Assembly: GCA_030681615.1 (NCBI GenBank)
Contig: JAUXSA010000096.1
Span: 1-55,862 of the forward strand
Source: Bacteroidota bacterium
GTDB taxonomy: Bacteria; Bacteroidota; Bacteroidia; B-17B0; Aurantibacillaceae
DNA: 55,862 nucleotides
Reading direction: 5' to 3'
Position numbers and translations under genes: made by a program. Within the stretch, counting starts at the first letter, position 1. The number at the start of each line of letters is the position of its first letter. Shown in pieces: positions 25,867-29,260 of the stretch. The notes beneath the pieces were generated by a model. It saw only the letters and a program-made list of their open reading frames with translations, was not told where the DNA came from and ran no database searches.

Positions 25867-25910
25867 AAAACCCCTTCTCCCGATAGCTATCGGGGCTGAA
25901 GAGGTTTTGA
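25867..25910 (-). terminator. Large hairpin terminator containing an 18-bp-class palindrome
   Basis: Outer arms AAAACCCCTTC (plus strand from 25868) and GAAGAGGTTTT pair with one mismatch. The tip of the hairpin is the perfect palindrome CCCGATAGCTATCGGG at 25879-25894. Read on the minus strand, the stem ends in GGTTTTATTTTTCCC, as expected for the terminator of the M56 gene at 26023-28338. The palindrome extends an ordinary stem, as if inserted at its apex. Confidence 0.7.
25879..25894. repeat. Palindromic repeat, copy 1
   Basis: CCCGATAGCTATCGGG, a perfect 16-bp palindrome that recurs at 29104-29119 inside a damaged tRNA-Leu copy. Flanking T is present on the left (TCCCG), but the right-hand A of the full 18-bp form is G here. 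Confidence 0.8.
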
Positions 25911-28800: not shown

Positions 28801-29089
28801 ATTTAAAGTCTTGATAATCAATTTGATTAGTTTTTACATTTAACCACCTTTGGTTTTTATTGGAGGCGATAATTTAGAAGCATTGTTTTATTAAATTCGA
28901 AATACATTTGGCAAATTAATCTTACTAATTCCAATTGCAAATTTTTTTCAATGCAAAAGTCTTTAAATGTTATTTTTATTTTTTAGGGGACCCTCCATCC
29001 AATGGTTCAATGATATTCGTATTAGTTTTTTATTCTCGTTTTAATTTTGTAGAATTTAAACAAAAACGTAGCTTTGTGCCACATTAAAT
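28801..29089. other. AT-rich intergenic sequence
   Basis: Between the BlaI operators and the broken tRNA copy. Together with its flanks it is a gene-free stretch of more than 300 bases. I read both strands and find no ORF with coding character, no RNA fold and no obvious repeat; it presumably contains the promoter of the tRNA. Confidence 0.4.
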
Positions 29090-29148
29090 GCCTTTGTGGC
29101 GGTCCCGATAGCTATCGGGATGGTAGACAAGCTGGTCTCAAACACCAG
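29090..29148 (+). pseudogene. tRNA-Leu 5' half-copy interrupted by a palindrome
   Basis: GCCTTTGTGGCGG, then the 18-bp palindrome TCCCGATAGCTATCGGGA, then TGGTAGAC-aa-GCTGG and the intact anticodon arm up to AACACCAG. Compared with the real tRNA 75 bases downstream, the palindrome replaces three D-loop bases (AAT), two bases of the D-stem partner are changed (GC to AA), and similarity ends after the anticodon arm: there is no variable arm, T-arm or 3' acceptor. It cannot form a tRNA. Confidence 0.85.
29103..29120. repeat. Palindromic repeat, copy 2
   Basis: TCCCGATAGCTATCGGGA, a perfect 18-bp palindrome lying exactly in the D-loop of the tRNA-Leu half-copy. The same 16-bp core occurs at 25879-25894. 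Confidence 0.85.
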
Positions 29149-29164
29149 AAGAAGTTTGAAAAAT

Positions 29165-29248
29165 GCCTTTGTGGCGGAATTGGTAGACGCGCTGGTCTCA
29201 AACACCAGTAACTTCACGGTTGTGTCGGTTCGAGTCCGACCGGAGGTA
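29165..29248 (+). tRNA. tRNA-Leu (anticodon CAA)
   Basis: Full cloverleaf: acceptor GCCTTTG pairs with CGGAGGT through one U-A, three G-C and three G-U pairs; D arm GCG/CGC; anticodon stem CTGGT/ACCAG with loop CTCAAAC (anticodon CAA, reading UUG); long variable arm AAC/GTT as in class II leucine tRNAs; T arm GTCGG-TTCGAGT-CCGAC; discriminator A. CCA is not encoded. The three wobble pairs in the acceptor are unusual but acceptable. A terminator follows. Confidence 0.92.
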
Positions 29249-29260
29249 CAATTAAAGTTC

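Follow-up and report, generated by a model that had tools for sequence, protein, structure and literature searches.

A hairpin-marked half-copy of tRNA-Leu(CAA) in a Bacteroidota genome, possibly derived from a tRNA-gene-targeting GIY-YIG mini-element

Why does half of a tRNA gene, with a palindrome in the place of its D-loop, stand just upstream of an intact tRNA-Leu(CAA) gene? The arrangement is found in the window (the whole stretch of 55,862 nucleotides analysed here), and the following features bear on it:

29047..29076, + strand: Bacteroidota-type promoter TTG-N19-TAGCTTTG of the tRNA-Leu unit, predicted from the sequence
29090..29148, + strand: displaced 5' half of tRNA-Leu(CAA), from the acceptor strand through the whole anticodon arm (sequence and tRNA comparison)
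29103..29120, + strand: 18-bp palindrome TCCCGATAGCTATCGGGA in place of the D-loop AAT (sequence)
29149..29164, + strand: spacer of 16 bases from the half-copy to the intact gene (sequence)
29165..29249, + strand: intact tRNA-Leu(CAA) (tRNA search)
25878..25895, + strand: second copy of the palindrome, differing at one position, within the loop of a terminator-like stem (sequence; ATTT in the relative G019)

The first-pass annotation had described a 5' half of tRNA-Leu(CAA) 75 bases upstream of the intact gene, and this start-to-start distance is confirmed. It is likewise correct that TCCCGATAGCTATCGGGA, a perfect palindrome, lies between GCGG and TGGTAGAC where the intact gene has AAT, and that the remainder is kept through the whole anticodon arm, with 26 of the 28 positions 3' of the palindrome identical to the intact gene (92.9%). 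The half-copy is placed between the intact gene and a promoter-like sequence, TTG-N19-TAGCTTTG, which we take to be the Bacteroidota promoter motif and which is predicted only; thus, the half-copy is probably within the tRNA transcript. Spacers like that of the window (AGTTTGAA) are found in G019, G011 and G013. No GIY-YIG nuclease gene was found on the contig of the window (C133) with profile and Pfam-model searches. The reading preferred here, to which we give a probability of about 0.6, takes the half-copy as the displaced tRNA copy of a GIY-YIG mini-element that targets tRNA genes, nuclease-free in this case, with the hairpin replacing the target loop.

An assembly fault is not a credible source of the arrangement, since G019 has the same half-copy at the same locus, with a slightly diverged palindrome, and in G006 and G007 a matching promoter directly precedes the tRNA with the half-copy absent, an empty site for the whole 75-base unit. 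Among 30 tRNA-Leu(CAA) loci found by DNA similarity, six carry a hairpin half-copy; one other (L032) has an odd copy without the hairpin, and another (L028) possibly a decayed half-copy. The earlier suggestion that half-tRNA and palindrome together form a repeat unit is borne out by tandem arrangements, two units in G011 and three in G007. In G013 and G046, which are of the same genus (L351 and L352), the D-loop half-copy and tRNA-Leu(CAA) are followed by a GIY-YIG gene immediately after the tRNA. At one locus of G013 (L057, at about 620-662 and 1157-1198), both displaced tRNA-Leu copies carry a second GC-rich inverted sequence in the interval between the D-arm and the anticodon arm. At a locus of G020 (L059, about 557-620), a tRNA-Leu-like copy with pairing ends, lacking the hairpin and the T-arm, stands shortly before the intact tRNA-Leu(CAA) gene.

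In the window's own genome, seven of the ten partial tRNA copies noted carry a hairpin, in a census that is incomplete because the tRNA search (27 hits) missed at least Leu-GAG; weak Ser matches and matches between different intact tRNAs were dropped before the ten were counted. The Leu-CAA and Met copies are 5' halves with the hairpin in the D-loop, and those of Thr-GGT and Arg-TCT are downstream 3' halves with one-base variants of the palindrome in the T-loop. At Leu-GAG, the order is a 5' half with a D-loop hairpin, a GIY-YIG gene, a repeat of the upstream region and, last, the intact tRNA. Val-TAC has two copies, each with TCCCGACTAAA(A)GTCGGGA instead of the anticodon arm; the intact tRNA and a GIY-YIG gene lie between them. 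The hairpin-free partial copies are short 3' pieces of Asp and Asn, and a 3' part of Val at a remote place. A Pfam-model search of this genome gave six GIY-YIG hits, four of them small proteins. Three of the four small genes lie between direct repeats, one repeat being hairpin-marked (Leu-GAG on C109, a non-tRNA repeat on C132, Val on C178), and the fourth is a truncated fragment. At C178:31666 (L347), a truncated GIY-YIG frame stands by a terminator and a tRNA-Val 3' end that resemble those of the Val element about 36 kb away, and, judging from the letters, is a remote partial copy of that element.

The same design, a partial tRNA copy with a hairpin replacing one loop or arm and an intact tRNA nearby, is seen in Bacteroidota with twelve tRNA types plus Val and Pro. 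In a hairpin-blind test, an interrupted tRNA copy was found in 34 of 51 tRNA-bearing loci, and 17 gave none at the settings used. Inserts were self-complementary (stem of at least 5) in 41 of 49 cases, against 2.1% of shuffled ones. By reading, the eight that did not pass, all retained in the 49, are five hairpins with extra end bases, one imperfect hairpin, one reversed comparison and one 1-base insert. The parts replaced are the D-loop, the anticodon loop or arm, the variable region and the T-loop. Hairpin sequence varies by lineage with palindromy kept: two copies at L379 differ in their centre (CCGCGG vs CCATGG), with the change on both sides, and at like positions other palindromes are found (TCACGC..GCGTGA, TCCCGCAGGTGCGGGA, TCCCGCTAAGAGCGGGA and TCCCGTTCGAACGGGA). 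Thus, the rule is the position of a hairpin, not one sequence. Reliance is placed on the hairpin-blind test because the null of an earlier count is loose, with 210 of 1617 cross-isotype pairs passing; in that count 44 of 58 hairpins near tRNAs had tRNA-like flanks, and some hairpins entered for two tRNAs.

The nuclease of the full elements is a GIY-YIG protein of about 100 codons; PF01541 scored above its cut-off for all three proteins given, and Y, YxG, R and E are invariant in 13 aligned proteins. A profile of these 13 (A1) found members in 74 of 119 genomes of the class and, at a stricter cut, in 50 of 87 genomes of the order. An intact tRNA is held by 26 of the 30 class-wide loci returned, the other four being shortened by contig ends, and lies within 600 bp in 25 of 29 further loci from the order, the remaining four having 130 bases or fewer on one flank of the gene; since A1 was seeded from tRNA or palindrome loci and found seeds again (one of the 30 and three of the 29), these figures do not represent GIY-YIG genes neutrally. 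In all tRNA-bearing loci among the 29, tRNA and nuclease gene are on the same strand, and the 54 distinct proteins, seeds included, comprise 45 with an intact tRNA within 600 bp, 45/45 on the same strand. By genome, palindrome and nuclease co-occur (29/33 vs 45/86, Fisher 2e-4), in a comparison that ignores phylogeny and the profile's origin. In protein trees, which were quick ones with few columns and many weak forks, isotype changes numbered 12 against a shuffled mean of 28.6 (54 proteins, 10 labels) and 14 against 44.9 (79 proteins, 11 labels). In the larger tree, Val and Met are each set apart by a starred branch, and Asn and Phe are scattered. Each nuclease lineage seems to be dedicated to the genes of one tRNA isotype.

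Full elements have the order hairpin-marked tRNA copy, nuclease gene, intact tRNA, or else they start with the intact tRNA and end with the marked copy. Direct observation covers this anatomy and its recurrence, the position of tRNA and nuclease gene next to each other on one strand, and the clustering of nucleases by tRNA isotype. For cleavage, homing and immunity, which we infer, the logic of a cut in a tRNA loop and duplication on repair is taken over from the phage enzyme SegB. The nuclease would cut the tRNA gene at a loop, and recombinational repair would then duplicate part of the tRNA while keeping one intact, functional copy. A hairpin at the cut site would make the displaced copy immune, and repeated rounds would yield tandem arrays. 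The unit in the window would be a nuclease-free derivative, its nuclease gene either lost or never present. The arrays of G145 fit such rounds: one set of tandem nuclease units has five frames spaced 373-379 bases apart, the last truncated, and another (L330, C9:904500-912000) has ten tandem GIY-YIG frames at 457-base spacing downstream of an intact tRNA-Met gene, each unit carrying a tRNA-Met 3' part.

Several known systems share parts of this anatomy. Group I introns with homing enzymes occur in tRNA anticodon loops, and so also use a tRNA loop as the place of insertion; in the elements described here, however, the intact tRNA is kept as a separate copy. SegB of phages T4 and T6, a free-standing homing endonuclease of the tRNA region, is likewise a GIY-YIG enzyme beside tRNA genes, with no intron or intein. 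It is reported to cut within tRNA genes and to give nuclease-dependent segmental amplification around a tRNA gene (PMC13096335); the motif RAWTSGAAC, given for it there, resembles a T-loop when its letters are taken on the other strand. Tandem amplification is common to both, reported for SegB and here suggested by the tandem arrays. Unlike SegB, the present elements are in bacterial chromosomes, encode about 100 codons, have protein lineages sorted by isotype, carry a loop hairpin in the displaced tRNA copy and have nuclease-free derivatives.

More broadly, we tentatively propose, as a possibility that goes beyond this locus and is held with less confidence than the reading of it, that such minimal selfish elements are widespread in Bacteroidota, with one isotype per nuclease lineage, a duplicated essential target, a palindromic hairpin as self-immunity, and nuclease-free arrays of hairpins and half-tRNAs as well as solo palindromes as offspring. 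No description of such elements in Bacteroidota, nor of the 18-mer palindrome, was found in the open-access literature searched. If the proposal is true, they would be a bacterial-chromosome counterpart of phage SegB, acting on essential genes and specialised by tRNA isotype; they would account for a group of puzzling partial tRNA sequences, and how a homing nuclease lives on an essential gene without destroying it would be directly testable.

The palindrome itself has a wider distribution. In the window, with up to three mismatches allowed, the 18-mer is expected 0 times, and one exact copy and one with a single mismatch are observed; the genome has 11 exact copies against 0 for a reversed-pattern control, and 13 copies of the 16-base core. 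Chance occurrence is excluded by this expectation and this control. The 18-mer is present in 33 of 119 genomes drawn from the class, with a maximum of 30 copies each. The idea of a mobile or spreading small element is upheld in so far as copies are dispersed with varied flanks and empty sites exist, both for the 75-base unit and in the terminator-like stem at 25878-25895, where G019 has ATTT; by the same data the 18-mer is not unique to its places in the window. The further idea that it inserted into a duplicated tRNA has to be modified, because the placement is not an accidental hit: hairpin-bearing partial tRNAs recur across Bacteroidota, many beside GIY-YIG genes.

When named genomes were scanned with a pattern biased to the D-arm, at least 117 loci came up, with 80 titles among the matches, all of them names that we take to be Bacteroidota, of several orders. 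Of the 140 exact copies there, 60, spread over 50 loci, are flanked by sequence that matches an intact tRNA no more than 1.5 kb away. Among the matches listed, these 60 represent twelve tRNA types; 38 replace exactly three bases and 11 replace four, 47 are at tRNA position 13-14 and 53 are upstream of the intact gene, shares which are uninformative on other loops since the pattern favours the D-arm. T-loop cases also exist, and other settings are terminator-like stems, other repeats and stop-free frames. In an unbiased set of 90 distinct exact 18-mers, eight have a tRNA and three a GIY-YIG gene within 600 bp, and 81 have neither; thus, the palindrome spreads without them too. Those 81 are either scars, or the palindrome moves independently and the elements share that process. 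Loop targeting as a general habit of the 18-mer was rejected: flanking stems score at least 6 in five of 94 distinct copies (5.3% vs 0.4% of control positions), and for the whole distribution p = 0.065, a signal too weak for loop insertion to be the general rule.

These lone copies give the best-surviving alternative, an unlikely one: the 18-mer would be an independent mobile palindrome that inserts widely, replacing about three bases, and its association with the nuclease would arise only because both are common near tRNAs. Insertions in intact tRNAs would be lethal, so they would be seen only in spare partial copies. Fifteen of the 90 copies are in stop-free frames of at least 150 codons, some near the frame start; these and the empty terminator site of G019 agree with this. 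However, other elements have palindromes of other sequence in equivalent positions, and seven of the ten own-genome partial tRNA copies bear a hairpin.

It is less probable still, a view we regard as doubtful, that the half-copies are functional RNAs, either leader hairpins steering processing or decoys for tRNA-cutting enzymes, their element origin being now irrelevant. The position between promoter-like sequence and tRNA is compatible with such a role, as are the predicted fold (z = -3.07 for the window, -2.46 for G019) and an anticodon-arm pair changed on both sides in G019 (T-A to C-G). However, 24 of the 30 tRNA-Leu(CAA) loci have no hairpin half-copy, and the part of the tRNA retained varies by genome, with some copies stopping after the D-arm. 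The RNA decoy of the first-pass annotation thus gains little beyond the stable predicted fold and that one paired change.

Very improbable is an origin as displaced fragments of ordinary integrase-driven islands, since deleted, because to our knowledge inserted hairpins are not part of the island signature, only 16 bases separate the copies in the window, and the full elements read hold a GIY-YIG frame of about 100 codons and little else between copies. The restored target gene and displaced fragment, seen in the window as intact tRNA-Leu and half-copy, are the known signature of islands integrated in tRNA genes (Islander, PMC4383910). Unlike such islands, the GIY-YIG mini-elements preferred here span no more than a few hundred bases, carry a hairpin in the fragment and use the D-loop as well as the anticodon loop and T-loop, and no integrase gene was seen between copies on reading.

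As short dispersed palindromes, some in open frames, the 18-mers are like REP elements with their RAYT transposases and like the Rickettsia palindromic elements. However, the 18-mer has no GTAG or CGTC end tag, unlike REP, and neither contig with a Y1_Tnp gene of this genome (C27 and C63) has an exact 16-base core. RAYT mobilisation was rejected, no link to it being seen: no Y1 transposase gene shares a contig with an exact copy. In the long stop-free frames of L011, L212, L221, L239 and others, the palindrome reads PDSYRD or PIAIG, like palindromic peptide insertions.
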